A stretch of DNA of 45,010 nucleotides from Clostridia bacterium (lineage in GTDB: Bacteria; Bacillota; Clostridia; Oscillospirales; CAG-272). The notes under the pieces are model-generated. The model had not been told where the DNA came from, made no database searches, and worked only from the letters and a program-made list of their open reading frames with translations. A program made the position numbers and the translations under genes. Below are positions 6,129-22,612 of this stretch, piece by piece. The DNA is taken from positions 1 through 45,010 of the forward strand of contig JAFYBN010000082.1 of assembly GCA_017540175.1 (NCBI GenBank), written 5' to 3'. How positions within the stretch are numbered: position 1 is the stretch's first letter; each line of letters opens with the position of its first letter.

Positions 6129-9100
6129 TCAGATCTCTCTTTCTCTGCGTCTGAATCTGATCCAGGCGACTACGGCGCAGGACGCGACCAGGCCCAGGCC
6201 GATGACGGTGTAGTACTTGATGCCGCTGCCGCCGGTGCTCGGGAGAACCAATCCGTTTGAATTCTTGACAACGATCGTGTAGACGCCGTCGCTGTCGGGT
6301 CCGGTCAGCTTGATGATGTCATTTGCCGGCAGGGCGGTCCCATTTTCATCCGTCAGTGACACGGTCCGTTTTGACACCCCGTTGTCAACTTCGATTTGAA
6401 TCTTGAAGTACACATCCCCGCCTGTCATGACGTATCCGGTCGGAACGACTGATTCGGTCAATTTATAGAAACCGACGGGGAGATCTTTCATCACGACCTG
6501 CGTTATGGTCGTCATATCGATCTCGTTGCTCTCAGATTCCGTGGAAGGCGACACGGAGACAGCGCCGCCGGTTGCCGTGACAGCCTGCAGATTAACGGCA
6601 ACCCAAGTTGATCCGTTATAGACCTTCAAGGTGAACTTCGCGCCGGTCAGAGGATTCTCGAAATCATCCACCTTTTTCAGTTTGAGCGGCAGAGGCTGGT
6701 TCGGGATCGTGAGCGTATAGACGAGTTTATCCTTCTGATCCCCGCTCTCCGGAATGGTCGACGTCAGCGTCACACTGTCCGGATGATCCCCCAGGGTGAT
6801 CACACCCATTTGATCGATCGTGAAGTTGATACTGCCGATCAAAGCGAAACCGGCTGCCGCTTCGACTTCACGAAGCTGGTAAGTTCCCGCGGGCAGGGCG
6901 TTGTCCAGATGAGGGATAACGCCGTTCTCGTCCGTGATCAGTTCGGTTTCGCCCTCGAACGCCAGCGCGGCGCTCCAGTCGATCGTCTCGCCGATCTGGA
7001 TCCGTCTATGGAGAGTGAACTTGACGCCCTGCAGCTTTTCATGGCTCAAGCTGTCTTCCTTGACGAACTGCAAATCGTAGGGGCGGTCCTTGATGGTCAG
7101 CGTCACATAATCCTGCGTGACACCGCTCTCATCCGGAACCGATTCAAAGCCCACTTCATAGTAGTCGGTTATGCTGCCCGTTGAAGGAGTAACATGGAGG
7201 GTCCACTCGGAGTTTTCCGTGACCAGCTGGAACGTCAGGTTCTGCGTGAGTCCGTAGTAACCCTGCGGAGCCGACGTTTCTTTCAAAACATAGTCTGTGT
7301 TTTCTTTCAGATGCTCGATCGAGACAAGACCGGTAGTTTCCGCAGAAGTCTTGTCCTCAAAGATCGTCGTAGTCGACTGTGTCAGCGTGAATTTCGCGCC
7401 GGCCAGAGGATGATCGGACCAGTCCTTTTTGAGGATCTTTACGGCGGGCTTATCCGACGGTGTGTTGGTAACCCTGAATCTTCTGAGGTTGGTACCGACC
7501 GTCTCGGGCTGCGCATAACTGACTTTGTATGTGATCGCTTCTTCGGTGGCGCCTTCAGTATTCATCGTTCCGTTGAGAACGATGGTACCGCCGTTCGCGA
7601 CGGGCGTTATGGTGTCATAACCGCTTACTACTCCGTCAGTCCCAACGGTAGTGCCGTCTCCCGTCAACCGCACCTCGCGGACAAAGAAGTTGGAGAACAC
7701 GGGGCTGTCGACCCCCTCGATATCCGTCGGCAGATTCAGATAGAACCACTGCAGCTCCTGAGGATCGTCGCTGTAAGCCAGTTCGCGTACGGAGCCGGGT
7801 ACAAGCGTACTCACCGAATTACCCTCATTATCGACCGTTTCGTAATAAACGGCGAAATCGGCAGGATCGCGATCTTCCATGTTCGAGGCATCCGCCCAGT
7901 TTTTGTACAGATGCAACGCGTAGCCCTTATAGTTCCGTACATACACCTCGGAATCGGTATTCTGCGCGGTACTGATCGTCCCCGTTATACCGTCCCAAGG
8001 ATCGTACGGATCCGTGTGGGAAGCTCCGGTAGGATCGTCTTCGTTCGCGTACTGATAGAACTTAAAGCCTTCGGGTGTTTCGGTTGCGGTGGGACGCTCG
8101 ACGACCATGTACTGCGTGCCGGGAATCAGTTCGAGCGCTTCAACCGTGTAATACGCCGGGATGGTGGCGATGGAGCCGTTCGGCGAAGTCTCAAAACTGG
8201 CGTAGAACTTGCCCCCGTGAATCTTATTGCCCTCACCATCATAGAGCGGATTACCGTTCACATCCGTGGGATCATCCGTCAGCTTACTGAAGTCTTTTGT
8301 TCCGGTCAGATAAGCATCGGGATCTCCGATCATATCGGAACCCTTGATTCTTTCAAACGTTTCCGCTTGTTTATTATACCTGCAATAGTAGCCGTCGGGA
8401 TCCTTGACATGGTAGACATAATAGGCGGCAGGCTGAAAATCGCTGTCGATAGGCGTCTTGAAATACAGGCGGTAATTGAATTTCTGCTCATGCAGAGGAT
8501 CCGGATCCATCTCATCGACTGCAATCTTCGTTACGCTTCCGTTGTTGTCTCTGTACAACTCCTTCGTGATCCTCAGGTCATTCAGCGTTTCAACCTTGTT
8601 GACGTATTTGACTCTCGGCCTGTCTTTAGTCGTCGCCCTTTCAATGCCATAGTCGCTGAGGTCGGGATCATCAGAGTTCGGCACACCGGTGAGCACTACG
8701 TCATTTGCTTTTACTTCCGTATAGATCGTCGGATCGATCCCGCATTCCACGATCCGGTATTCGCCGACCGTCATCTCTTCGTCGACCGTTACCACTTCAT
8801 GTGTGACTTCATCCACGTGTGTGACAGTCCCCATTTTAACGGGGAAGTTGATTACGGCCGTCTCATCCGGCTTCAGCAAGAAGACGTTGTAATACGTAAC
8901 ATAAGTATCGTCGGTCGGATCGTCCGGATCGTTTTCTACCAGCACTTTCAATTCAGGCAGGAAGGTCACCGGCTTGGACGAATCCTTATAGAACACGTAA
9001 TCCGTCGATTCCGCAGTGCCAAATTCGCTGTAATACTGACTGGATGCCTCAGACGGATCAAACGCGTTTCTCAGCATATACTCCGTGGGGGCAGTAACCT

Positions 9101-12100
9101 CTTCATCCGTGTAATAGGGATCGTCCTCCCAGGTATAATAGACCTGATACGGGAAGAGCGCATAGGTCGTTCCCGTGGAGCTCACGCCTTCGAGCTTCTT
9201 GGTCAGTTCTGCGGTCCCCTTCTTGACGGCCGCCAGGTTGAACTTCATATGGAGGTTGGACGCGCCCGCGCCGCGCTCCATGTAGAAGATCCGCATGGTG
9301 TGGTTCGTGTCGTCTTTGAAAACGTGGTTCCCCGCCTCATTCAATTCAAACAGTTGATCCGCCCTTGCCGTCGCCTCCGCCTGCGTAGCGCCGCGCGCGA
9401 TATAGTTCGAAATGAACAGATCATACAGCGTCGTGTACTTTAAGTTCTGCGGCTGATTACTCTTAGGATTCACAATGACCTGTCCGGTCCTGAAGTTCAC
9501 ACTGCCGGATACGGCGCTGTGGATACCGCCGAGGTCGATGACAAGCTCGTCATCCACATAGAGCCAGAAGTCGTCGTCACCGGAGAACTCGAAGATGATG
9601 TCATGTCCCCAGGCGTCCAGACCGCTGGGCGTCTGGACGAAACTGGCCTCCAGCTCCATCGCGAAGAAATAGTCCGTCTTTTCATCAGGGGCTCTCTGTG
9701 TAACGAGATAAAGCTGTTCGTGCTTGCGAGGATCCGTGTCGGGCAGCAGGTCGGCGGTCACCGTGTACAGGTTCTCGGCGTTCGTGGAAGCAAACCGGCC
9801 CGGCTCGATATCGTTGTACGGGAAGAACTGCCCGTGCTGCAGCGTATCCTTTTTGGTGGTATCGTTGGTCCCGATTTCCTTGTAGACGACAAAGTCGCCG
9901 ACTGCGTAGGTCCCGCCGTCGGGACTCGGGGTACCTACCAGCGCGTCTCCTTCTTTCAGGAGGTGGGCAAAGTTCTGGGCGCTGTTGTACTCAAAATAAC
10001 CGGTGGCGCGATAGGTGCTTTCCATGAACAGATGGTTGACATTCTCCGGATTGTTGCCGTCGTAAAGCAGGGAAAGCGATCCGCCGCCTAACGGATCCGT
10101 TGTCGTCGGATAGTCGTTTGTCAGATTTGTCGAAAGAAGTCCCGGCGTGTGATTCCAGGTTTTACCGTTTTGAATGCCGTTATGCAGGAAAGCGTTCATC
10201 TGACCGGTCAGGTCAGAGGTCTGAGAGCTGTTTGAAAGATCCACCATCCTCATCGTAATGCCGTACTGCGTATTGTCAATGGTAGGCACCGTGTGGATCT
10301 CGTCGTCGACGGGGACATCGTCCATGATGGCGAAGTAGAAATCGATGCCGTCCGCCCTGAAGCAGGGTTTCAGGACCGGATCCGGCTGGTTCAGATCGAC
10401 CGTCAGTCCCGAATACATATATTCCGGGTTATCCCACGCCACGATCGGCGTGTAATACTGCTGATTCGTTCTGCCCTGCAGAAGCACGCCGACGGTATGG
10501 TCAAACAGGACCGTGTTCGTGGAAAACTGCGGAGCGAGATAGGAAGGGTCGCCGTTGCCCCTCGCATAGAGGTTTTCCAGCTCGTAGTAGCCGTTGGGCG
10601 TGACGCCGTCGTCCCAGACGTACTCCGTAAACTGCCAGAGCATGTCGTTCAGGTTGCCGCCGTACCATTCGATCGTATCGCCGCTTTCGTTGCAGGGCAC
10701 GAGCTCGCCCTTGCTGTTGATCGCGTAGTATTCATAATGGTCATTTTTCCACTGGCGGGCGTAAATGATGATCTTGGAGCCGGTATTTACCTTTACGGTA
10801 TCGGAGACGCTCACCTTAGTGGCGGTATAGACTTTTTCGTATTGCGGCAGTACATCTTCCGGCAGGGGCGTAACAAGATTCAGCCATTCGCTTCCGGACA
10901 CGCCGCCGATGCCGTAGCCCTGGACATACTTTCCGCTGTAGGTCAGCGCCTTGTTTCCGTTGCCCACGGCTTTGAGGGAAATCTGTCCTTTGTGGTCACC
11001 TGTTCCGGGCGTTACCTTGATCCTGCACGAATTGTCCGGCGTATCAACCAGTTCCAGACCGGCGCTTGTGATCTTAAGGTACTGCCCGTTGTCCGCCTGC
11101 AGATAATAGTAGTGGTTGGATGGATCCTGCAGGATGAACGTCCAGTGCGTGACGGTATCTGCGGTGTTGTTCGGGACGTACAGCTTATCGCTGGCGTCGG
11201 TCTCACGCACCATCACGGAAAGGAACTTGGCTTCGAGACAACCGGAATAGGGTACGTCGTTTTCGTCCGTACCGGTGTTCACCTTGGCCATCAGCGCCTT
11301 GGCAGTTCTGCCGCCGGTCCAGGTCATGAGACCGTAAGACATCCCGTCCAGACCGTAAGGATCCTCGTCCGCTTCCCGGTCTCTCCAGATATACAAGCTG
11401 TTGTTGCTGTCATCGGGGGATTTTACTGCCGCAAAGCCGTTGCCGCCGGAACCGCCCGGCATCGTCAGGTACCAGTCGCCGTTGTGGATGCTGAAGACGC
11501 CGAAGCTGTTTACCTCAACCGAAAACGCGGTTTTCTGGCTCGCATCCGCGGTGAGGGAAATACTGTTGTTTCCGCTGTTGGATACGTACACCTTTTCGGA
11601 AGCACTGTTATAACAGTAAATGTAGTACTTGCCGTCGGGCGCGTTTTCGAAATAATAGCGTACCGCGGTGGTGGTTGCGTTGGTCGTTACGTTGGGAGTA
11701 TCCTTCTGTCCCGTCTTCTGGATATAGGTTCTCCCGCTCTTGGTAGTGGTCGTATTCTTCAGGTAATACCCGGTCGTATGCCCGATATAAAAACCGCCGG
11801 AAACAGAGGTAAGTTCATCGACTGATTTAACCTTTGTATAAGTCGTATTGCTTGAAGGTCCGGGCACGATGGCGTACACGGAGAAGCCGCCCGCCGCGAA
11901 GCTGACGGTGCTGCCGTCTGTTTCGGCGTCGACCACGCTCGCGTTGTTCTCCGCGTCAAAGTGAACGACGCTGTAATCGTCGGCGTCCGCGTCGATCAGT
12001 TCGATCTTCACGTCGACGGTCGTCCCGTCGGCGGGCTGGTAGACGATGTCCTCGTCGAACCTGTCGACGATTTTGATATCAAACAGCCGGATATATCCGA

Positions 12101-13061
12101 TACTGCCTTCATCTATTCCGAGGGCGTTCTCGGTCATCGCGACATATTCCGAATACGCTTCGGATACGACGGAAATCTCATTAACGCTCAGATCGGCGTC
12201 CTCCGGGATGCCGGTATCAGCCGCGTACGTCGCCGTAATCTTGTAATTGTACCCGTCGGAACCAAGCACGGTCTTTTCGATCACGGTGCCGAAAACGCCG
12301 TATACCGAAAAGCTTCCCGCGCAGAAACGTACCGCCGCGCCGTCCTTCGACACGTCGATCACTTCGATCCTGGAATTATTCTCCTCGGCGTCGGGCACGG
12401 TCTCGACGGACTTTTTGCCGTCGTCGGCCGATTTGCCGTCGAAGGAGCCGCCTTTTGCTCCTTTCGTTCCTTTTGTCCCTTTCGCGTCGTCAAACGTGAT
12501 TTCCTCGGAGAAAGTACCTCCGCGGGTCTGCGTTCCTTCCGTCTGCTCGTCACTCTTCTGATCGGAGGCAGCGTCCTTTTCATTGTCGGGGAAATGGATT
12601 ACGGAAACCTTATCGACGCTCGCGACCTCCTCGCCGGCGATCGTCACGTCGACCAAGCCCTCGGGCTCGACGGGTTCACCCGTTTCAGGGTTGATAAGGC
12701 AGATGTCAAAGAAACGTGCGAAGACCGTCTTATCAGTGAACGCGTACGTTTTCTCGGCGGCGGCGAGATACTTTTCGTAGAGTTCGGATCCTTCCGGGAT
12801 CTCGCTCACGTACAGCTCGGTATTCTCCGGGATCTTAGAGTCCTCGAAATATTCGAGCCGGAAATCGTATTCGTCCGTATACGCGGTCAGAACGCCTTCG
12901 CCGTATGCTGTTTCGACATTCTTATCCTCCTCTCCGACCGTGACGAACGCAAACAAATCCGCGAAAGCGGGAGCTGCCGCGGTAAACATCATGAGCGCTG
13001 CCAAAAGCAGGGCCACTACTTTTCGTCTGATCGGTTTCGGTTGATAAGTTCTAAAGACCAT
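6129..13061 (-). CDS. Giant cell-wall-anchored adhesin (fibro-slime and Cna-B domains, LPSTGG), probable pilus tip protein
   Basis: This is a 2310-residue surface protein. A signal peptide (RRKVVALLLAALMMFTAAAPAFA) is followed by two related N-terminal modules (about 40-400, each with a YVSEIPEGSELYEKY-like and a VSVIHF-like segment) and a region that may be beta-trefoil (410-800). A fibro-slime/PA14-like domain around 1130-1190 has FEFSGDDDFWLYVDDELVID, and a series of Cna-B/SpaA-like folds follows (near 1280, 1490, 1870, 1990 and 2120, each with a K-x-D/x-L-x-G-A-K-F-x-L start). The LPSTGG sorting signal is at 2273-2278, with a membrane helix and an RFRRRER tail. The ATG at 13061 is chosen because GGAGG lies 11 bases upstream; an in-frame TTG at 13079 overlaps that site. 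A short collagen-like GTKGTKGAKG run lies near residue 205. It is the last gene of the pilus operon, and ligand binding is inferred. Confidence 0.9.
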   Translation of the reverse strand: MVFRTYQPKPIRRKVVALLLAALMMFTAAAPAFADLFAFVTVGEEDKNVETAYGEGVLTAYTDEYDFRLEYFEDSKIPENTELYVSEIPEGSELYEKYLAAAEKTYAFTDKTVFARFFDICLINPETGEPVEPEGLVDVTIAGEEVASVDKVSVIHFPDNEKDAASDQKSDEQTEGTQTRGGTFSEEITFDDAKGTKGTKGAKGGSFDGKSADDGKKSVETVPDAEENNSRIEVIDVSKDGAAVRFCAGSFSVYGVFGTVIEKTVLGSDGYNYKITATYAADTGIPEDADLSVNEISVVSEAYSEYVAMTENALGIDEGSIGYIRLFDIKIVDRFDEDIVYQPADGTTVDVKIELIDADADDYSVVHFDAENNASVVDAETDGSTVSFAAGGFSVYAIVPGPSSNTTYTKVKSVDELTSVSGGFYIGHTTGYYLKNTTTTKSGRTYIQKTGQKDTPNVTTNATTTAVRYYFENAPDGKYYIYCYNSASEKVYVSNSGNNSISLTADASQKTAFSVEVNSFGVFSIHNGDWYLTMPGGSGGNGFAAVKSPDDSNNSLYIWRDREADEDPYGLDGMSYGLMTWTGGRTAKALMAKVNTGTDENDVPYSGCLEAKFLSVMVRETDASDKLYVPNNTADTVTHWTFILQDPSNHYYYLQADNGQYLKITSAGLELVDTPDNSCRIKVTPGTGDHKGQISLKAVGNGNKALTYSGKYVQGYGIGGVSGSEWLNLVTPLPEDVLPQYEKVYTATKVSVSDTVKVNTGSKIIIYARQWKNDHYEYYAINSKGELVPCNESGDTIEWYGGNLNDMLWQFTEYVWDDGVTPNGYYELENLYARGNGDPSYLAPQFSTNTVLFDHTVGVLLQGRTNQQYYTPIVAWDNPEYMYSGLTVDLNQPDPVLKPCFRADGIDFYFAIMDDVPVDDEIHTVPTIDNTQYGITMRMVDLSNSSQTSDLTGQMNAFLHNGIQNGKTWNHTPGLLSTNLTNDYPTTTDPLGGGSLSLLYDGNNPENVNHLFMESTYRATGYFEYNSAQNFAHLLKEGDALVGTPSPDGGTYAVGDFVVYKEIGTNDTTKKDTLQHGQFFPYNDIEPGRFASTNAENLYTVTADLLPDTDPRKHEQLYLVTQRAPDEKTDYFFAMELEASFVQTPSGLDAWGHDIIFEFSGDDDFWLYVDDELVIDLGGIHSAVSGSVNFRTGQVIVNPKSNQPQNLKYTTLYDLFISNYIARGATQAEATARADQLFELNEAGNHVFKDDTNHTMRIFYMERGAGASNLHMKFNLAAVKKGTAELTKKLEGVSSTGTTYALFPYQVYYTWEDDPYYTDEEVTAPTEYMLRNAFDPSEASSQYYSEFGTAESTDYVFYKDSSKPVTFLPELKVLVENDPDDPTDDTYVTYYNVFLLKPDETAVINFPVKMGTVTHVDEVTHEVVTVDEEMTVGEYRIVECGIDPTIYTEVKANDVVLTGVPNSDDPDLSDYGIERATTKDRPRVKYVNKVETLNDLRITKELYRDNNGSVTKIAVDEMDPDPLHEQKFNYRLYFKTPIDSDFQPAAYYVYHVKDPDGYYCRYNKQAETFERIKGSDMIGDPDAYLTGTKDFSKLTDDPTDVNGNPLYDGEGNKIHGGKFYASFETSPNGSIATIPAYYTVEALELIPGTQYMVVERPTATETPEGFKFYQYANEDDPTGASHTDPYDPWDGITGTISTAQNTDSEVYVRNYKGYALHLYKNWADASNMEDRDPADFAVYYETVDNEGNSVSTLVPGSVRELAYSDDPQELQWFYLNLPTDIEGVDSPVFSNFFVREVRLTGDGTTVGTDGVVSGYDTITPVANGGTIVLNGTMNTEGATEEAITYKVSYAQPETVGTNLRRFRVTNTPSDKPAVKILKKDWSDHPLAGAKFTLTQSTTTIFEDKTSAETTGLVSIEHLKENTDYVLKETSAPQGYYGLTQNLTFQLVTENSEWTLHVTPSTGSITDYYEVGFESVPDESGVTQDYVTLTIKDRPYDLQFVKEDSLSHEKLQGVKFTLHRRIQIGETIDWSAALAFEGETELITDENGVIPHLDNALPAGTYQLREVEAAAGFALIGSINFTIDQMGVITLGDHPDSVTLTSTIPESGDQKDKLVYTLTIPNQPLPLKLKKVDDFENPLTGAKFTLKVYNGSTWVAVNLQAVTATGGAVSVSPSTESESNEIDMTTITQVVMKDLPVGFYKLTESVVPTGYVMTGGDVYFKIQIEVDNGVSKRTVSLTDENGTALPANDIIKLTGPDSDGVYTIVVKNSNGLVLPSTGGSGIKYYTVIGLGLVASCAVVAWIRFRRREREI

Positions 13062-13094
13062 AATGTGTTTATCCTCCAAGACAATCGCCTAACA

Positions 13095-13192: not shown

Positions 13193-14185
13193 TCATTCCA
13201 GAAATTCAAACTCGTCGGATTCCGATTTCTTTTGCTTGCCCGCTTTCTTTCCCTGAGTCTTCTTTGCGGTCTGCGCCTTTTCGGAGGATTCGTCGAGATC
13301 CATGGCAGCCTGATGCGCGAGGATGCGCTTCATCGCTTCTCTTTTGATCTTTTCTCTTTCCCTGGCTTCGCTTCTTCCTCCGCCGATGAACACAATGAGG
13401 ATCAGAAACAGAATGATCGGGACGGCAAGCACCGCGGCGACCAGAACGGTATCGATCTGCATCGCTTCGCTCGTAAAGTGAAGCGCATTTTCCGTAACGT
13501 TTTCCACGCGGGTACCTCGCACCAGAAGTCGGTGGGTGTTGATTGCGTATGGCGTACAGGTGACAAGCGTACAGTAGTCTTCGTTCTCAACCACCTGCAG
13601 CAGGCTCAGATCCTGCGGTTCGACAATTTTGATCTGATCGACCGAATACCGGTAAGTTTCGCCGAGAACATAGATATCAAACTCATCGCCGACACGGAGC
13701 TTGTCGAGATTCGTAAACAGCTTGGCGGACGGCAGTCCGCGGTGTCCGCTGATGACGGAGTGCGTGCTTTCCCCTCCGACGGGGAGAGAAGACCACTCGA
13801 GGTGACCGACCGCGATCTGCAGGACCGCTTCGGACGTTCCGTGATAGATACCGAGAAAGCAGTCGATGGAGGGGATCTCGATATAGCCGATCATTCCTGT
13901 TCCGGAAGGATCGAGAACGGCGTTGTATTCCGCCTCTTCCTGTTCGTTGAGCTTCATCCGCTCGATGATTTCGTGGTTCGCAAGCTTTCGGTTCCATTCT
14001 CTGGCAACTTCCAGCAGCTTCAAATAACGATCCTCGTCGAGGTTTGCGATATCCTCTGCGTAGTGGGCGATAACCTGGCTCTGATGGAAGCTGTTCCAGT
14101 AGTCGGAGAAGTAGGGGTAGAGTACAAGTCCCAGGCCGACAACAAGAAAAAACACAAGGATCAGGTTGATTATTCGATTCTTCAC
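13193..14185 (-). CDS. Class C (pilin-polymerising) sortase
   Basis: This is a membrane transpeptidase that joins LPxTG pilins through lysine side chains. Its 330 residues have an N-terminal membrane helix (about 7-27), an extracytoplasmic domain, and a second hydrophobic helix near the C-terminus (about 240-265), as is typical of class C. The catalytic residues are visible: H148 in VISGHRGLP, C210 in TLVTCTPY and R219 in NTHRLLVRG. A DP dipeptide (VLDPSG, about residue 91) lies where class C enzymes carry the DPW/DPF lid, but the aromatic residue is replaced by Ser. The cytoplasmic tail is Lys/Glu rich. It lies 87 bases after the first sortase gene and upstream of the giant adhesin, so it is the natural candidate for backbone polymerisation. 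Confidence 0.92.
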   Translation of the reverse strand: MKNRIINLILVFFLVVGLGLVLYPYFSDYWNSFHQSQVIAHYAEDIANLDEDRYLKLLEVAREWNRKLANHEIIERMKLNEQEEAEYNAVLDPSGTGMIGYIEIPSIDCFLGIYHGTSEAVLQIAVGHLEWSSLPVGGESTHSVISGHRGLPSAKLFTNLDKLRVGDEFDIYVLGETYRYSVDQIKIVEPQDLSLLQVVENEDYCTLVTCTPYAINTHRLLVRGTRVENVTENALHFTSEAMQIDTVLVAAVLAVPIILFLILIVFIGGGRSEAREREKIKREAMKRILAHQAAMDLDESSEKAQTAKKTQGKKAGKQKKSESDEFEFLE

Positions 14186-14272: not shown

Positions 14273-14962
14273 TCAGGATGACGATTCGTCCGCCAGGCAT
14301 CTCACGACGATCCTTCGGTTCCCGGTGAGCGTACAGGTGAACAGACTGAGTCCCCACTCCTTGTCCCGGAGAGCTTTTCCGTCATTGCCGTCGAGGATCT
14401 CCTGTCCGACAACGGAATACGTGAACGTGCGACCGGCGAGATCGGTGTAGAGGACGAGGTCGCCCTCCTTCAGACGGTCGATCTTGCCGAGATGACTGCG
14501 GTAATTGTGACCGCCGATGACGAATCCCGGCCGGTATGGGGAACCGCGCCATCTGCCCGGCGCGACGTCGATCGTGCTGTCGTCGCAGACTCTCATCACG
14601 GACAGTTCGAGTCCGAGTACCGGGATGCTGAGTATTCCGATATACTCTCTGCCGTCGACGACGACCGTTATGATTTCGGGCTCCTCGTCATTCACGCCTC
14701 CTGGCGTGAAATCGGGCGTATAAATCCCAGGAAGAAAATCCGAGGCGGTCACGGATCCCGGTTCGTCGGACTCCGTTTCATTCTCTTTTTCTCTATCTAT
14801 TTTGCTCTGGCGGATTACCGTGTACACACGGTCGACGATTTCCTCATTAACTTCTCCGGCGTCGATATCCGTCTTGATATTCCATACTGTAAGACCGACC
14901 GCTGCGACTATCAGGAATACGCCGAGGATGACAATGCAGATCCCTGCTCCGCGCCGAATCAC
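14273..14962 (-). CDS. Second sortase, class D-like or housekeeping-type, GTG start
   Basis: This is a 229-residue membrane sortase. Hydrophobic residues 6-30 form the anchor; a linker and the beta-barrel follow. The catalytic set is H152 in VIGGHNYRSH, C210 in LSLFTCTLTG and R216/R217 in GNRR. The TLxTC motif is altered to SLFTC. There is no C-terminal membrane helix, unlike the class C enzyme next door. The GTG at 14962 is chosen because it overlaps the TGA of the minor pilin gene (GTGA), a usual sign of translational coupling. A longer reading from 15079 would run deep into the pilin gene and begins with basic, unlikely residues. It may handle the IPLTG signal of the preceding protein or anchor the finished pilus to the cell wall; this is inference. 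Confidence 0.85.
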   Translation of the reverse strand: MIRRGAGICIVILGVFLIVAAVGLTVWNIKTDIDAGEVNEEIVDRVYTVIRQSKIDREKENETESDEPGSVTASDFLPGIYTPDFTPGGVNDEEPEIITVVVDGREYIGILSIPVLGLELSVMRVCDDSTIDVAPGRWRGSPYRPGFVIGGHNYRSHLGKIDRLKEGDLVLYTDLAGRTFTYSVVGQEILDGNDGKALRDKEWGLSLFTCTLTGNRRIVVRCLADESSS

Positions 14963-16029
14963 TCTTCGTCGTCCTTCTCTTCGTCGTCCGTTTCTTCTCT
15001 GCTCTTCTTTCTGCAGAGAAGAGAACCGATGCCGACGCAGGCAACTCCGCTCACGCCGAGAACGGGAACCGGCCACCATAAGAGACCGGTCAGCGGGATC
15101 GGTTCATCCGGAATTTCTTCATCGGGAGGCTCCGGGTTGTCCGGCGGATTATAATCGTCCGGGGGATATACCAACGGAACGTCCGGTTCGTCGGGAATAT
15201 CTTCTTCCGGTTCGGGTTCGGGTTCCGGTTCAGGTTCGGGTTCCGGCTCGGGTTCGGGTTCGGGTTCCGGTTCAGTCTCCGGTTCCGTTTCCGGCTCCGT
15301 CTCCGGCTCCGTCTCGACGGTGGTTTCGACGCTGACCTTCGGCGCCAGGTTGTTGCCTGTGTATTTCCATTCCGTGATGTCTGCGTTGACCGTCATTTCA
15401 TACCGGTACATATCGTTCCCGTCGGGTCCTGTCGCTTCGGACGCCTGTTTCCAGTAACCGCCGGGGAGAAAGATGAGCGCCGCCTGAAATCTGTAATGGC
15501 AGGTGATCGTCTGACCGTCGCGGACGATGGGACCGTAATCCTGCTCGGGTATGCGCAGCAGATACAGACCGGCCGTCAGGACCGTCCCGTCCCGAAACGA
15601 CGTGAACGTTACGGAAGCGTCGCCGCCCGCCGTGGTCCCGTCCGCTCTCAGGGCTTCTACCGCCGGTATACCGTTCTGATCGATATAGCGGGGCAGCGCG
15701 GCTTTTTCCGCCAGAGCGTCCCATTTCTCGGTGCTGTCGATTGTGACGGATGTGTCCCAGAAATCCTTGAAATCGTCGGTCGGGATCAGCATTCCCGGAG
15801 CCCACGGACCGTCGTAGCCTTCGCGGACGTCGGCAACCTTCCACACGTATACCTTGAAGCCGGTCAGATTGTTGCCGTAGACCGGATCCTTCAGTACCAC
15901 GGTGATGCTTACCGGCTTATCCGTATCGATGGCCGGGCTCCCGTCGGCTGCAAAAATCGCCTGCGTCAGCGCAGAGCAGAGCAGAAGACAGAGCAGGACG
16001 GCCGCGATCCTTTTTTTCATAAGACTCAT
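14959..16029 (-). CDS. Minor pilin / accessory surface protein with IPLTG sorting signal and Pro-Glu stalk
   Basis: This is a 356-residue exported protein. It has a signal peptide (KKRIAAVLLCLLLCSALTQAIFA) and a pilin-like beta-rich domain (about 25-225) with the form PVSITVVLKDPVYGNNLTGF...YVWKVADV. A stalk of TEPE and EPEP repeats (about 235-275) is followed by a Pro/Asp-rich linker and IPLTG at 311-315. A hydrophobic helix and a charged CRKKSREETDDEE tail complete the sorting signal. The motif differs from the LPSTG of the other two pilus proteins. The ATG at 16029 has AAGGAG 8 bases upstream and is preferred to in-frame starts at 16062 and 16020. The stop overlaps the sortase start. It is likely a base or linker subunit. 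Confidence 0.8.
   Translation of the reverse strand: MSLMKKRIAAVLLCLLLCSALTQAIFAADGSPAIDTDKPVSITVVLKDPVYGNNLTGFKVYVWKVADVREGYDGPWAPGMLIPTDDFKDFWDTSVTIDSTEKWDALAEKAALPRYIDQNGIPAVEALRADGTTAGGDASVTFTSFRDGTVLTAGLYLLRIPEQDYGPIVRDGQTITCHYRFQAALIFLPGGYWKQASEATGPDGNDMYRYEMTVNADITEWKYTGNNLAPKVSVETTVETEPETEPETEPETEPEPEPEPEPEPEPEPEPEPEPEEDIPDEPDVPLVYPPDDYNPPDNPEPPDEEIPDEPIPLTGLLWWPVPVLGVSGVACVGIGSLLCRKKSREETDDEEKDDEE
15205..15320. repeat. Hexanucleotide repeat tract encoding the Pro-Glu stalk
   Basis: On the plus strand the tract is a run of GGTTCG / GGTTCC / GGCTCC hexamers, coding on the minus strand for alternating Glu-Pro and TEPE units. Its 6-base unit means that slippage would change stalk length without breaking the frame. 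Confidence 0.8.
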
Positions 16030-16184
16030 ATCATATTCTCCTTTTTCGTCGGGAGAGGACAATTTCTTCCGTATTGCTTCATTCTGAACGTTGCGTTCCC
16101 GTGATTTCGACGGGCGCCGAAATGGCGTTTGCCGTACACAGCGGGGACGGGACCGGAACGCCGATCGCTCCGATCCTCTCCCCG

Positions 16185-16247: not shown

Positions 16248-18572
16248 TTATTTCTCTTCTTCTTCCTCTTTGCCCATTCTCTTTCTCGTGACGAGCACAA
16301 CGCCCGCGCCGACAGCCATCAGACCGCCGCCGATGTAGAAGGGATAAACACCGAAGCTACCGGTCGAGGGAAGGATGGTACCGGACTTGTTCTCGATCTC
16401 AACCGTGTTCAGGATGTAGAGACCGGGATCAGCCTTCTTGTCAGCGAAGTTGTCAGCGGTAACGGAGGTTTCCAGGGTATACGCTACAGTCACGACCTTC
16501 TCATAATAGCGTGTATCGGGGTCATAAGCGGTAGCCTGCGCGTATTTTCCATCCGTACCCAGCGTATAATACTCAGTCGAGAAATTCGAAGCGTTTACGT
16601 TGGGCGTGATCTCCGGGTAGGTCTCGGTCTCGGTCTTCGTGTAGTACTTCTCGTTTTCTTTGAACGTGTCAGTGTCGCCGACTTTCGCAAAGCCGCTGCC
16701 GGTCGCGTTCGAAGCTGTGCCGTAGGAGTACGTGACGTTTCCTTTATCGTCAATGACGACCTTGACGTCGCCGGTCAGGAGGTTGTAACCTTCGGCGGTA
16801 GAGGTCTCACGGAGGAAGTAGGTGCCGGCGGCCAGACCGCGAACGTTGCAGACCGTACCCTGCTTGACCTTGATGGTCGTGTTGGTTTCGGTGTCGTCGG
16901 AATCGGTCTTGTAATACTTCTCGTATTCCGTCTCCTCCGTGAGGACGATCTTGGTGGTATCGGGAGCGCCGGTACCCGCTCCGTCCGAATTCTTGGCTTC
17001 GGGGTAAAGCTCGAAGGTCGCTTTGAGATCCGTGTTTTTCTCATCGCCGACGAAGATCTTCTCGATATCGAAGTCGTAAGTGAAGACCTCGGGCTTATGC
17101 GGCACCGTCTTGAACTTGGAGTTTTCAGCGAATTCCGTGTTGACGTAACCGTGATCCGCCGCCGTCAGATCAGTCTCGTCGATCTGGCTCGCGCTGAGAA
17201 GTTCCGCTTCGTACTTGATGACGACGGAAACAGGGACGAATTTGCCGTCCGTGTCCTTATTCGCATCCATCAAAGCCGCGATCTTCGTCGACGGGATGGT
17301 GATCTCGAACGTGCAGCCGTCGGTAAGACCGCTTACGGTGGACGACAGAGTCGCTTCATCGACGACGTATGCCGTATCGGCGGCATAGGAAATGGTCGAC
17401 GCCGTCAAATCGGTCGGCAGCTCGGACGTCTTGCAGACATAGTACTTCAAGCTGGCCTTGTCGAACTTCAGATGAGGATCCAGAATATCGTGCACGATGA
17501 CATCAGAATCGGGATCGATGGTGGTGGGAAGATTGACCGTGATGTAGTAGGTGGCCTTCTCTCCGACGGTGATGTCGGCTCTTTCCACGATCTTATCGTC
17601 GGAGATGTAGCTGTTCTTCGTGGTGATATCGATGTTGGAGGTCGCGAGAATGAGCGCCGTGCCGACGGTGGAATCGATGAGATAGTAACCGTCGTCAACT
17701 TCCGTCGTCGTCGCGGTACCGCTCGCACTGGTGATCGTCTTGTCGGGAGAAATGCCGGCCGTTACAACATTTCCATCCTCATCCAGTACCTCAACATACT
17801 GGTAGAGCCATGCGGCAAACGCCTTCGCGGCATCTTCGCTTTCGTCGAGCTCATCCGAAGAATCCTTCTTGAGGCTCCAAGTCACATTGTAAACGGTAGG
17901 ATCTGCGGCGGACTTCGTAAGGGTGACCCATTTCTGACCGGAAGCGGCAGTCCACTTTCCATCCGAATCGACCGTTCCGAGCTTGGCAAACCAGGGGTTG
18001 TCTGCCGTCGTAGGAGGAGTGGTGCTGGCATCCGTAACGATCTTGGAAGAGATCGTGTAGGCGTAGCCTTCCGCGGTGGCGGTGCCGATGGTGCCGTTGT
18101 TCGTATCCATATACGGAGCCGGACCGGTCTTCGTATAATACGTGGTATCAGCAGCGAACGCAGTCAGCCCTTCGGCTTCCGTGTATTTTTCGGTCAGCGT
18201 GTAGTACGTAATGGAGGAGTGATATTCTTCCGTGTTTTTCGTGTAAGTAGGAGGAGTAGTCGTGTCATCCGTAATGACGTAGTAGTCAACTCCGGACACG
18301 AAGGCGGTCAGACCGTCCTGAGCGGTATAGGTTTCGGTCTTCGTGTAGTAGGTGGTGTCCGCGTCAAAGGTCGCGCTGTCAGGAACTTCGGCAAAGGTGG
18401 CTTTCGCTTCCGCGGTCTTCTTTACGTCGAAGATCTTGAACAGACGGTACGTTTCGGCTCCGGTGGTCCCGTTCAGATTTTTCTGATGGACGGTGATCGT
18501 CGCCGCAAGCGCGCTCGCTGCCAGACCGATGATCATCATCAGGGTCAGCAGAATAGCAAGGAGCTTTTTCAT
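16248..18572 (-). CDS. Pilus backbone (major) pilin, LPSTG
   Basis: This is the 774-residue major subunit. A signal peptide (KKLLAILLTLMMIIGLAASALA) is followed by the N-terminal pilin domain starting TITVHQKNLNG...AETYRLFKIFDV. This domain is interrupted at about residues 45-135 by Tyr/Thr-rich YYTK repeats. A central isopeptide-type domain (VNLPTTIDPDSDVIVHDILD) and a Cna-B domain (FDIEKIF... with E-box YFLRETSTAEGY) come next, then a second Tyr-rich insertion before the sorting signal. LPSTG is at 734-738, followed by a helix and a TRKRMGKEEEEE tail. The ATG at 18572 is supported by AAGGA 9 bases upstream; another in-frame ATG lies at 18590. The pilin-motif lysine cannot be assigned with confidence. 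Polymerised by the class C sortase, by family knowledge. Confidence 0.88.
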   Translation of the reverse strand: MKKLLAILLTLMMIIGLAASALAATITVHQKNLNGTTGAETYRLFKIFDVKKTAEAKATFAEVPDSATFDADTTYYTKTETYTAQDGLTAFVSGVDYYVITDDTTTPPTYTKNTEEYHSSITYYTLTEKYTEAEGLTAFAADTTYYTKTGPAPYMDTNNGTIGTATAEGYAYTISSKIVTDASTTPPTTADNPWFAKLGTVDSDGKWTAASGQKWVTLTKSAADPTVYNVTWSLKKDSSDELDESEDAAKAFAAWLYQYVEVLDEDGNVVTAGISPDKTITSASGTATTTEVDDGYYLIDSTVGTALILATSNIDITTKNSYISDDKIVERADITVGEKATYYITVNLPTTIDPDSDVIVHDILDPHLKFDKASLKYYVCKTSELPTDLTASTISYAADTAYVVDEATLSSTVSGLTDGCTFEITIPSTKIAALMDANKDTDGKFVPVSVVIKYEAELLSASQIDETDLTAADHGYVNTEFAENSKFKTVPHKPEVFTYDFDIEKIFVGDEKNTDLKATFELYPEAKNSDGAGTGAPDTTKIVLTEETEYEKYYKTDSDDTETNTTIKVKQGTVCNVRGLAAGTYFLRETSTAEGYNLLTGDVKVVIDDKGNVTYSYGTASNATGSGFAKVGDTDTFKENEKYYTKTETETYPEITPNVNASNFSTEYYTLGTDGKYAQATAYDPDTRYYEKVVTVAYTLETSVTADNFADKKADPGLYILNTVEIENKSGTILPSTGSFGVYPFYIGGGLMAVGAGVVLVTRKRMGKEEEEEK

Positions 18573-18660
18573 TTTGGAGATTCCTTTCATAAATATTTAT
18601 TATTTTTGAGTGATATCCAAATCCCCCTCGGGGAAATGTTCGGGTAGGTAAGCGTCCCGA

Positions 18661-20709
18661 TCAGTTGAGATCGGTGATCAAGGTGACGCGCCCGCGCTGT
18701 TCGCTGTGCACGTCGAGCCTGGAGGCGCTGCCGTCGTAATCCGCCCGGTAAACCATCGTGGTTCCGTCTTCGGAAAGACCTTCCACGGTGATTTCCACCG
18801 GTCCGGTCGGGATGACCTCCACGAGCCGCATTTCCGCGGCCGTTTCGACAGCTTCGCCGTCTTCCCGTTCATCCCCTTCGGGCGGACCTGCGGACGTTTC
18901 GGGAGATTGATCGCCCGATCCCGCTTCACCGAAGAATTCGTCCGAATCGATGACCGTTCCGGATCCGTCTTCAGCAGGACCGTCGGTTCCGGAGGCTTCG
19001 GAGATCACCGGTTCCCAACGCCAGACGGAAATGTCCAGCCATCGGAGATCGAGACTCTTCAGACCTCTGTTTTCGAGGTCCGCATTCACCGCGTCGGTTT
19101 CGGCGCCGGCGTCTTGTGCGTCAAGGACGCGCAGGACGAGGTCGTCGGTCGGACACGGGAATGCTTCGGACGACGCGACCAGCGTCACGCGGATCCCGTC
19201 TTCCGTTTGCGCGGAAAGTTCCACGAGACGCGGGGGTTCGTCGGGAGGTGAAAGCGGGGGTTCGTCGGGCGGTTCTTCAGAGGGTTCGCCGGGAAGCAGG
19301 TTCGGGTCATCCGAAGTCGGATTCGATCCGTCGAACGTGAGCCCGTCCGGATCGCCGCTCCCCTTCCGGAGATCTCCGACCGGAGCGTTTCCGTCCGGAT
19401 CCATCGGCTGTTCGCCGTCCGTGTTCTCAAGTGAAACGATCGTGTTGTCCGTGACCGGCGGGTCCGGATTCTCCGGAAGCGCCAGATAGCCGATGATGTT
19501 TTCGAATTCCCTCTCGAAGATCTCTTCGCAGACTTCGCCGCGTGTGCCGCCGATCAGCGTTAAGATCTCCTCGTCCGTGACCTTCGTCACGATCGCGACC
19601 CGATCCGCCAGACCGTCTGCGTTGTCGTCGAAGAACACAAGATCGCCCCGCCTGGGTTCACCGTCCGCTTCCATCCAGATCCCGCGCGTTTTCTCGGTTT
19701 CCGAAACTTCCGCGGGCTCCTCTGTTTCCGGAACATCCGGCGGTTCTTCTGATTCGGGAATCTCCTGCGCATCCCGTTCAGCCTGTGCGCGCACGGCGTT
19801 CATCCAGTTGGCAGGCACGGAATCCGTGGGGATGCCATAGATGTTCGCGTAGTGCATACAGAACATGACGTACAGCGCATTCCAGCCGGCGTAGCGGTTG
19901 CCGTACCAATCGCCGTATCGCGTGTATCCGTGCCGGATGTTGTATTCGTCCGTCACGAAGTTGAGATCACTTTCGGCATATCCGAGCTGACTCTCTGCGA
20001 TCGCGATCAGGTCTTCCGCCCAGTCGCCGGTCAGTTCTACGTTGCAGAACGAGGATTCCCAGTCAATGTCGACTTCCACGTGTGCGTGGGGATCGCCCTT
20101 CAGCTTCGGGTAGCATGCCTCGGTGTGCTCATGCTCGGGGATCGTACAGGTCAGAACGCTTTCCTGCACGAAGCAGTACTCGTTGTGAACGTGTCCGACG
20201 CCGGGTTCCGGCTTGCACACGAATATGGGTACGCTTTGCCAGCAGTCATCCGTATGGACGTGGTCGGGATCGTCCTCCATGCCGCATACGAGCGTATCGA
20301 CCCATTCGATGCACTCCGCCGTATGCTCGTGGACTTCGCCCGCGATCATGCCGCAGCTGAGAACCTGTTCCTCAATGAAGCACTCTTCCGTGTGCTCGTG
20401 CTCCGGATCGTCCTCGAGACCGCAGATACAGACTTGGCGTGTGGTATAACAGGATTCGTCGTGCACGTGTCCGGGACTTTCGTCCAACTCGCAAATCTGT
20501 CTTTCGACCGTTTCCCAGCACTCCGGACCGTGTGTGTGTGCTTCTAATCCACAGATCAAATCATACTCTTGGGTAGTAGCCGGGTTGATCAGCAGGATGA
20601 CCGTGGTCAGCGCCACCGTCAGCGCCAGGAGCGAAAATATCGCCCTGTACCTTTTCTTTCGCCGTCTCTCTCTTGCAAGCAGTACCTGTGGACTGATGCT
20701 GAGTTCCAA
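18661..20709 (-). CDS. Membrane-anchored His/Cys-repeat protein with degenerate CHAP domain, first gene of pilus operon
   Basis: The 682 residues contain a basic N-terminus, one membrane helix (about 22-43) and no LPxTG, so it is probably a type II membrane protein with its bulk outside. Residues 50-205 hold seven HxHxxxC repeats, each preceded by another Cys, giving a C..HxHxxxC set that could bind a metal such as zinc. A CHAP/NlpC-like domain (about 225-400) follows with GDLVFFD and DRVAIVTKV. Its catalytic Cys position is Asn (W-N277-A instead of W-C-A) and the His position is R370, so it should lack hydrolase activity. Pro/Glu-rich linkers and a C-terminal beta module follow. The start is TTG at 20709, with AAAGGAGG 10 bases upstream. 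It may bind peptidoglycan or act as an assembly platform; function is unknown. Confidence 0.8.
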   Translation of the reverse strand: MELSISPQVLLARERRRKKRYRAIFSLLALTVALTTVILLINPATTQEYDLICGLEAHTHGPECWETVERQICELDESPGHVHDESCYTTRQVCICGLEDDPEHEHTEECFIEEQVLSCGMIAGEVHEHTAECIEWVDTLVCGMEDDPDHVHTDDCWQSVPIFVCKPEPGVGHVHNEYCFVQESVLTCTIPEHEHTEACYPKLKGDPHAHVEVDIDWESSFCNVELTGDWAEDLIAIAESQLGYAESDLNFVTDEYNIRHGYTRYGDWYGNRYAGWNALYVMFCMHYANIYGIPTDSVPANWMNAVRAQAERDAQEIPESEEPPDVPETEEPAEVSETEKTRGIWMEADGEPRRGDLVFFDDNADGLADRVAIVTKVTDEEILTLIGGTRGEVCEEIFEREFENIIGYLALPENPDPPVTDNTIVSLENTDGEQPMDPDGNAPVGDLRKGSGDPDGLTFDGSNPTSDDPNLLPGEPSEEPPDEPPLSPPDEPPRLVELSAQTEDGIRVTLVASSEAFPCPTDDLVLRVLDAQDAGAETDAVNADLENRGLKSLDLRWLDISVWRWEPVISEASGTDGPAEDGSGTVIDSDEFFGEAGSGDQSPETSAGPPEGDEREDGEAVETAAEMRLVEVIPTGPVEITVEGLSEDGTTMVYRADYDGSASRLDVHSEQRGRVTLITDLN

Positions 20710-21530: not shown

Positions 21531-21977
21531 GTGAAAGAAAAAGATCTGAAAAAGCTGAAAAGAGCCGAGTTGCTCGAGCTGCTCGTCGAAGAAGGCCGTA
21601 TCGTGGAAGAGCTTCAGAAGGAAGTGACGCAGCTCAGAGCGGAATCAGAGCAAAGAAGGATCGCCATTGAAAAAGCCGGTTCGATCGCGGAAGCCTCTCT
21701 CAGCCTGACGAAGATTTTCGAGGAGGCGCAGGAAGCTTCCAAAATATATTTGGATAATATCAGGCAGCGCAGCGAGGAGCAGGACCGCATCAACGCCGAG
21801 CGGGACGAGGAAAGCCGGAAACAGGCGGAGCAGATGTTTCTCAAAACCGCGAAAAAATGCAAGGATCTGGAAACGGCGACCTTCCAGAAATGCCGCCAGA
21901 TGCTCGAAATGACGGCAAAGAAAACGGGAACCGCGCTGCCGGCCGATACGGGAAAACACGCGGATGCGGTTAAGTGA
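21531..21977 (+). CDS. Small coiled-coil protein of unknown function, pilus-locus associated
   Basis: This is a 148-residue, highly charged, helical protein with no signal peptide or membrane helix. Residues 1-50 form a Lys/Glu/Leu heptad-like coiled coil. A segment reading SIAEASLSLTKIFEEAQEAS (about 51-70) is followed by IYLDNIRQRSEE and a second charged helix. From memory, similar SIAEAxLxLxxIFExAQ segments occur in small proteins near sortase and pilus loci of Clostridia, but I cannot check this. It uses GTG at 21531 with GGGGGA about 8 bases upstream, and lies 26 bases before the signal peptidase gene on the same transcript. It might be a cytoplasmic partner in export or pilus assembly; this is inference. 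Confidence 0.7.
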   Translation: MKEKDLKKLKRAELLELLVEEGRIVEELQKEVTQLRAESEQRRIAIEKAGSIAEASLSLTKIFEEAQEASKIYLDNIRQRSEEQDRINAERDEESRKQAEQMFLKTAKKCKDLETATFQKCRQMLEMTAKKTGTALPADTGKHADAVK

Positions 21978-22003: not shown

Positions 22004-22612
22004 ATGAGCAAAAGGAAAGAGCGTTTCGGCGGAGTCGATTCGGTAAGCGGTCTGCCGGACGTGGACGAGCTCAAAGCAGAGCTGAAACGAACGAAGAAGA
22101 GAGAACGGTTCCGGACCGTGCTTCGTTCGACGATATACTCCCTGATCGTGGTTGCCGCGGCTGCGGTCCTTATCGCGACGCTTTGGATGCCCGTTCTGCG
22201 GACGTACGGTTCTTCCATGACCCCCACCATCGAGGACGGAAACATCGTCGTCGCGTGGAAGTCCACGAAATTCAAGACGGGGGATCTCTTGGCGTTCTAC
22301 GCCGACAACAAACTGCTCGTCAAGCGTGTGATCGCGGCTCCGGGTCAGTGGGTCCGCATCGATGACGACGGCACCGTATACGTGAACGATGAGGAACTGG
22401 ACGAGCCCTATATCGATGAAAAGGCGCTCGGAAACTGCAACATCGTCTTCCCTTATCAGGTGCCCGAGTCGCAGTGGTTCGTCATGGGGGACCACCGGAA
22501 AACCTCGTCGGATTCCCGCAACACGGCGGTCGGCTGCGTGTCGCTTGACCGCGTGGTCGGCGTCGTTCTTTTCCGCGTTTGGCCGTTTGAATCGTTCGGT
22601 CTCATAAAGTGA
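22004..22612 (+). CDS. lepB: Type I signal peptidase
   Basis: This membrane serine protease removes signal peptides from exported proteins. Its 202 residues include one membrane helix (about 43-62) after a basic cytoplasmic region. The catalytic Ser is in GSSMTPTI (S71) and the general-base Lys is in LLVKRVIAAPG (K107). GDHRKTSSDSRN is the conserved box E. Both catalytic residues are intact, unlike some pilus-island SipA proteins. The start at 22004 follows GGAGAGGA with a long spacer. It is cotranscribed with the coiled-coil gene and lies about 1.3 kb from the start of the divergent pilus operon, so it may be a dedicated pilin-processing peptidase, as known for streptococcal pilus islands. 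A terminator follows. Confidence 0.92.
   Translation: MSKRKERFGGVDSVSGLPDVDELKAELKRTKKRERFRTVLRSTIYSLIVVAAAAVLIATLWMPVLRTYGSSMTPTIEDGNIVVAWKSTKFKTGDLLAFYADNKLLVKRVIAAPGQWVRIDDDGTVYVNDEELDEPYIDEKALGNCNIVFPYQVPESQWFVMGDHRKTSSDSRNTAVGCVSLDRVVGVVLFRVWPFESFGLIK

Follow-up and report, generated by a model that had tools for sequence, protein, structure and literature searches.

A triad-less CHAP-like protein with Cys/His repeats opens a clostridial pilus operon and may be the separated head of a tip adhesin

The first gene of the pilus operon in the window (the whole 45,010-nucleotide stretch of DNA analysed here) encodes a protein with a CHAP-like domain that lost its catalytic triad long ago but has a scaffold preserved by selection. 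We believe with moderate confidence that this gene encodes the head module from the N-terminus of a pilus-tip adhesin, split from the remainder by gene fission, with a pseudo-hydrolase serving as a binding head on knuckles. In the arrangement we propose, a CHAP-fold head without a triad would stand behind a row of Cys/His knuckles acting as a spacer. In one-piece relatives this module, lying far from the C-terminal LPXTG signal, would form the outermost part of the pilus, whereas in the clade of the window the head would be produced on its own, either secreted or held at the membrane, and would probably cooperate with the 2316-aa LPSTG adhesin encoded in that operon. Such a head would bind without cutting, and its ligand is most plausibly a cell-wall peptide or something related.

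The gene (18661..20709, minus strand) is an open reading frame with a TTG start that encodes a protein of 682 aa. It lies upstream of the SpaA pilin and class C sortase genes, in agreement with an earlier note on this DNA that had described a pseudo-CHAP gene at the head of a pilus operon. The same note had claimed attachment other than by sortase, and a C-terminal sorting signal is indeed absent, so that the window protein cannot itself be a sortase-linked tip. Sequence and model place a basic N-terminus and a long helix with a hydrophobic stretch at residues 7-45 (20575..20691, minus strand). These are followed on the same strand by seven C-x4/7-HxHxxxC units (residues 53-199; 20113..20553) recognised by motif count, alignments and a repeat-region model, by the pseudo-CHAP domain (residues 225-415; 19465..20037) delimited by alignments and modelled fold, and by a C-terminal domain (residues 476-680; 18670..19284). 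An acidic, Pro/Glu-rich insert at window positions 19681-19782 (approximately residues 310-343) of the pseudo-CHAP domain is missing from all of the 17 relatives aligned there.

To compare the catalytic positions we aligned 40 active-looking rows (32 counted without repeats and 8 with repeats) and 82 inactive rows. Codon reading and alignment put Asn277 (codon AAT, 19879..19881, minus strand) and Arg370 (codon CGG, 19600..19602, minus strand) in the columns of the catalytic Cys and His, which are occupied by Cys and by His in 40/40 active-looking rows, and both replacements named earlier are thereby upheld. Beyond what had been noted, the third triad position is also gone, with Gly388 (19546..19548, minus strand) aligned to a column that is Asn in 40/40 active-looking rows; the claim of an inactive site now covers the whole Cys/His/Asn triad (N277, R370, G388). 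Among the inactive rows, column 277 holds Ser in 48, Asn in 28 and Asp in 6, column 370 holds mostly Thr, Arg, Ala or Ser, such that the His position is free there, and column 388 holds Asp in 65 and Asn in 10 of 80 rows, while the scaffold residues W276, Q241, Y265 and W268 are present in 82/82. The Cys is thus replaced by Ser, Asn or Asp only; these are helix N-cap residues, and the structure model of the window protein has a helix beginning at residue 277. The Pfam match to the CHAP profile is sub-threshold (16.7 bits against a cut-off of 26). The predicted structure bore out the CHAP-like domain suggested earlier, with the AlphaFold model and VIA-align giving a papain-like CHAP/NlpC fold. 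Foldseek alone returned zero matches to the pseudo-CHAP model at E 0.001 or better.

Relative loci were collected by scanning genome contigs with the single motif [RHN]G[YI]TRYG[EQD]W, which omits the catalytic positions yet favours this protein family, and the best 80 of 108 were used. Within this set plus the window, the Cys is lacking in 71/81 proteins (42 Ser, 26 Asn and 3 Asp) and ten have both Cys and His; none of the 81 keeps the Cys without the His, and six of the 71 Cys-less proteins keep the His while two are gapped at that column. Profile A2 was built from 13 rows, all of them Cys-less, so active relatives are under-sampled. A draw of 391 genomes from the class yielded 77 places at E 1e-8 or better, and of the 76 that remain once the window is set aside, 41 were examined, all but the 35 weakest. 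All 11 of the examined places with repeats lack both Cys and His and all 30 without repeats keep both, an association that is not an independent test because the rows are related and that has counter-cases in the motif-scan set, where eight repeat-bearing copies keep both residues. At 1e-30 a match was found in 9/391 class genomes, including that of the window, and in a draw of 398 genomes from the phylum only in the window's own genome; in the same genus the full-length protein was matched in 7 of 24 other genomes at 1e-5. A tree of 119 rows was built by a quick method that leaves 39 of 116 inner branches open, its rows not being independent, after L078 and L108 (cut by contig ends) and L076 (a twin of L074) had been dropped. 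The Cys state requires two changes on this tree against a shuffled mean of 33.8, with 0/500 shuffles as low and with the starred branches forcing just one, and the His state requires seven; the window groups with L031-L034 on a starred branch, five rows in all.

The seven HxHxxxC motifs reported earlier are all present, with the first His at residues 58, 81, 104, 127, 150, 173 and 193 and a Cys lying 4 residues ahead of it in two units and 7 in five. By comparison, 2000 shuffles of the window protein gave a mean of 0.012 such motifs and a maximum of 1. The four Cys/His ligands ascribed to each unit proved to be strongly conserved among relatives. We counted 378 HxHxxxC units across the 81 proteins, occurring in 80 of them, and the nearest Cys before the first His is exactly 4 residues away in 172 and 7 in 133, that is in 305/378 units, the Cys frequency being 1.4%. 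In a 68-row alignment the last unit has C188 in 66 rows and H193, H195 and C199 in 67 rows each; unit 1 scores 68/68, but the rows were trimmed to the first HxHxxxC and the sole independent count there is that of C53. Modelled alone, the repeat region has a mean pLDDT of 85.9 and consists of a regular short turn followed by a seven-residue strand. A PDB sequence search with the repeat gave no match, and a PDB fold search with the repeat region gave no meaningful match. From the set of ligands we infer that these knuckles probably bind a metal, zinc or some other; as a row they would act as a spacer.

Ahead of the repeats, an AxA-like site lies one residue before the first repeat Cys in 52 of the 79 relatives with a readable N-terminus, and N-terminal cleavage is likely in many of them. 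A PA-x-T-type sequence takes this position in 21/81 proteins, including the window protein, in which we found no AxA-like cleavage site; the rest of its clade lacks one too. As this site is common in relatives, most of which also have a linked signal peptidase gene, and is missing from the window clade, the N-terminal helix may be a membrane anchor instead of a signal peptide, and the evidence between the two is mixed.

The minus strand of the operon continues with a backbone pilin carrying a SpaA domain and an LPSTG tail (16248..18590; open reading frame and Pfam), a small surface protein or minor pilin with an IPLTG-type tail (14959..16062; open reading frame, no Pfam match), a second sortase (14273..15079; Pfam), a class C pilus sortase (13193..14185; 267 bits, cut-off 160) and the giant LPSTG adhesin with PA14 and SpaA domains (6129..13079). 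The plus strand carries a small gene judged by eye to be coiled-coil-like (21531..21977), with homologues in 49/80 relative loci, and a signal peptidase I gene with Ser/Lys motifs (22004..22612), which is divergent in the window and elsewhere usually precedes the tip gene on that gene's strand. Among testable relative loci the signal peptidase is upstream in 63/70, a backbone pilin downstream in 49/55 and a class C sortase present in 47/49. Seven of the ten Cys-keeping copies (L035, L037, L039, L042, L052, L055 and L075) have a signal peptidase upstream and three (L085, L100 and L110) do not. The relatives that are complete at both ends measure 1000-2000 aa in 53 of 66 cases, and a regular expression found a sorting-signal tail in 52 of the 67 frames having a 3′ end, a count that misses at least L074/L076 with their MPSTG tails. 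Cna_B, SpaA, PA14 and ricin-type domains occur in the large relatives that were scanned, and large LPXTG proteins encoded at the corresponding place of the operon have the module at their N-terminus. On the strength of operon slot, size, adhesin-type domains and LPXTG signal, the large one-piece relatives are likely to be pilus tip adhesins. The earlier proposal of a base, a length control or a metal switch, while not disproved, found no support, as the module of the relatives is the N-terminus of an LPXTG protein in the same slot; that proposal is probably wrong, and a tip-derived head takes its place.

Several tip genes elsewhere appear to be interrupted, with in-frame stops and an open LPXTG-tailed frame behind them in L073 (2724) and L090 (11277) and breaks of another sort in L061 and L095; these may be due to errors of assembly, to decay or to switching. 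An unverified 'Bacteriophage sp.' record from human faeces (L151, MT835974.1) contains the small gene and the signal peptidase together with a relative of 1724 aa that has six HxHxxxC units, a pilin and a class C sortase. The record, which places the pseudo-CHAP/repeat module in the human gut, is probably host DNA or a mobile element.

The short form without a sorting signal occurs in four genomes (the window; L031 and L034 of one MAG; L032; L033), although L034 looks truncated. A giant frame homologous to that of the window follows srtC in L033, where it is open at the contig end and has a VWA domain rather than PA14, and in L032 the start of such a frame follows srtC as a partial frame at the contig end. 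The giant protein of the window matches 24 of the 80 relatives at E 1e-3 or better, and against L037 it aligns in order behind the CHAP domain (residues 63-188 with 596-731, and 1136-1197 with 1718-1775). By iterated profiles, residues 476-680 of the short protein are homologous to the domain right after CHAP in two one-piece relatives, L035 and L064. The giant protein's N-terminal domains are likewise homologous to the post-CHAP place in L037, L042, L109 and others; a profile seeded with giant residues 267-412 strayed into CHAP sequence and was kept just for post-CHAP matches that other seeds reproduce. By these alignments the short and giant proteins together cover one protein of other lineages. 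Both carry the post-CHAP domain type, so that the split would have duplicated a domain or have fallen within a tandem array. The window gene thus looks like an N-terminal part split off by gene fission. The reverse polarity, fusion in other lineages instead of fission in the window clade, is weakly disfavoured by the tree, in which the short clade is nested among one-piece rows but the forks at that place are open. Two further copies from one Lachnospiraceae MAG (L067 and L083) end after post-CHAP domains without a sorting signal, and are possibly a second short form or truncations.

A gene lacking both the sorting signal and the adhesin region might be the decaying remnant of a tip gene whose function is gone, and its C-terminal part does evolve faster (dN 0.47-0.71; against L032 a loose dN of 0.713 with dS 1.38). 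We nevertheless reject decay, and regard it as very unlikely, on the dN/dS values of the repeats and CHAP-like domain, which are approximately 0.12-0.41 in all three relatives tested, with dS near saturation in the repeats. For the CHAP-like domain the dN and dS values are 0.168 and 1.08 against L032, 0.235 and 0.75 against L031, and 0.382 and 0.92 against L033, and for the repeats they are 0.28 and 1.71 against L032. As this low dN relative to dS indicates, the protein is maintained by selection. The ligands of all seven repeats are intact, and the occurrence of the short form in more than the window genome also speaks against decay. It is barely credible that the CHAP-like domain is still an enzyme acting through other residues. 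Papain-like enzymes with a Cys-to-Ser change may keep some activity (PMC10318531), and Ser is the most frequent residue of column 277 in the inactive rows, but in the window itself the triad is replaced by Asn, Arg and Gly, so that this point concerns its relatives more than the window, and the freedom of the His position in the inactive rows also weighs against activity. C284, seven positions past the nucleophile, had been named earlier as a Cys that might stand in at a working site; it is Cys in 81/82 inactive and 38/40 active-looking rows, a residue conserved in both classes, and is ruled out as a replacement nucleophile by its equal presence in the latter.

A further alternative, which we consider unlikely but of more weight, is that the protein is a membrane-anchored assembly factor or base, its helix staying in place and its pseudo-CHAP domain holding nascent wall peptide beside the sortases in a role like that of SipA. 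The absence of a sorting signal is consistent with this, as are the long helix, the basic N-terminus and the lack of an AxA-like site, and a study of SipA describes a pseudoenzyme that has retained the peptide cleft and without which pili are not polymerised (PMC4049620). On the other hand, relatives with a like N-terminus often carry a sorting signal (the 52/67 given above) and would then be anchored twice, and the linkage of a signal peptidase gene that has Ser/Lys motifs also counts against this alternative. The separated tip head is our preferred reading.

More tentatively, and with considerable doubt, we picture a clostridial pilus lineage with a hydrolase-fold tip head that exists in two states in the same slot, a rarer active-looking one that could cut and a common dead one that would grip the wall peptides of neighbours, on a metal-knuckle stalk of an undescribed kind, with the head later released in the window clade. 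If true, the known range of pilus-tip domains would come to include a dead enzyme used as a binding head, with active-looking siblings as natural controls, along with a Cys/His repeat that has no PDB structure match here. It would bear on how gut and rumen clostridia hold surfaces or one another, and on the question whether a tip module needs a sorting signal of its own in order to act.

Among known systems, the fold of the window domain is common to the CHAP and NlpC-P60 peptidoglycan hydrolases (PF05257, PF00877; e.g. C. difficile autolysin Acd24020, PDB 7cfl), from which it differs in the replacement of all three triad residues, a Pfam score under the cut-off and the fused Cys/His repeats. 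DUF1175, an inactive papain-like family reported to bind peptidoglycan, shares an inactive papain-like fold tied to wall binding but is another family (PMC10318531). SipA of Streptococcus pyogenes, described as an inactive signal peptidase in pilus operons, is like the window protein a catalytically dead hydrolase kept in such an operon, and differs in having another fold and in being a separate membrane factor rather than an adhesin head (PMC4049620). The window gene shares with the sortase-pilus tip pilins CafA/FimB of A. oris an operon with backbone pilin, class C sortase and signal peptidase, and its relatives are likewise large and mostly LPXTG proteins. SpaC and RrgA are also sortase-pilus tip pilins. 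In A. oris the CWSS is necessary for tip assembly (PMC11389406); the window member differs from these tip pilins in its CHAP-like head and in having the sorting signal on a separate giant protein.
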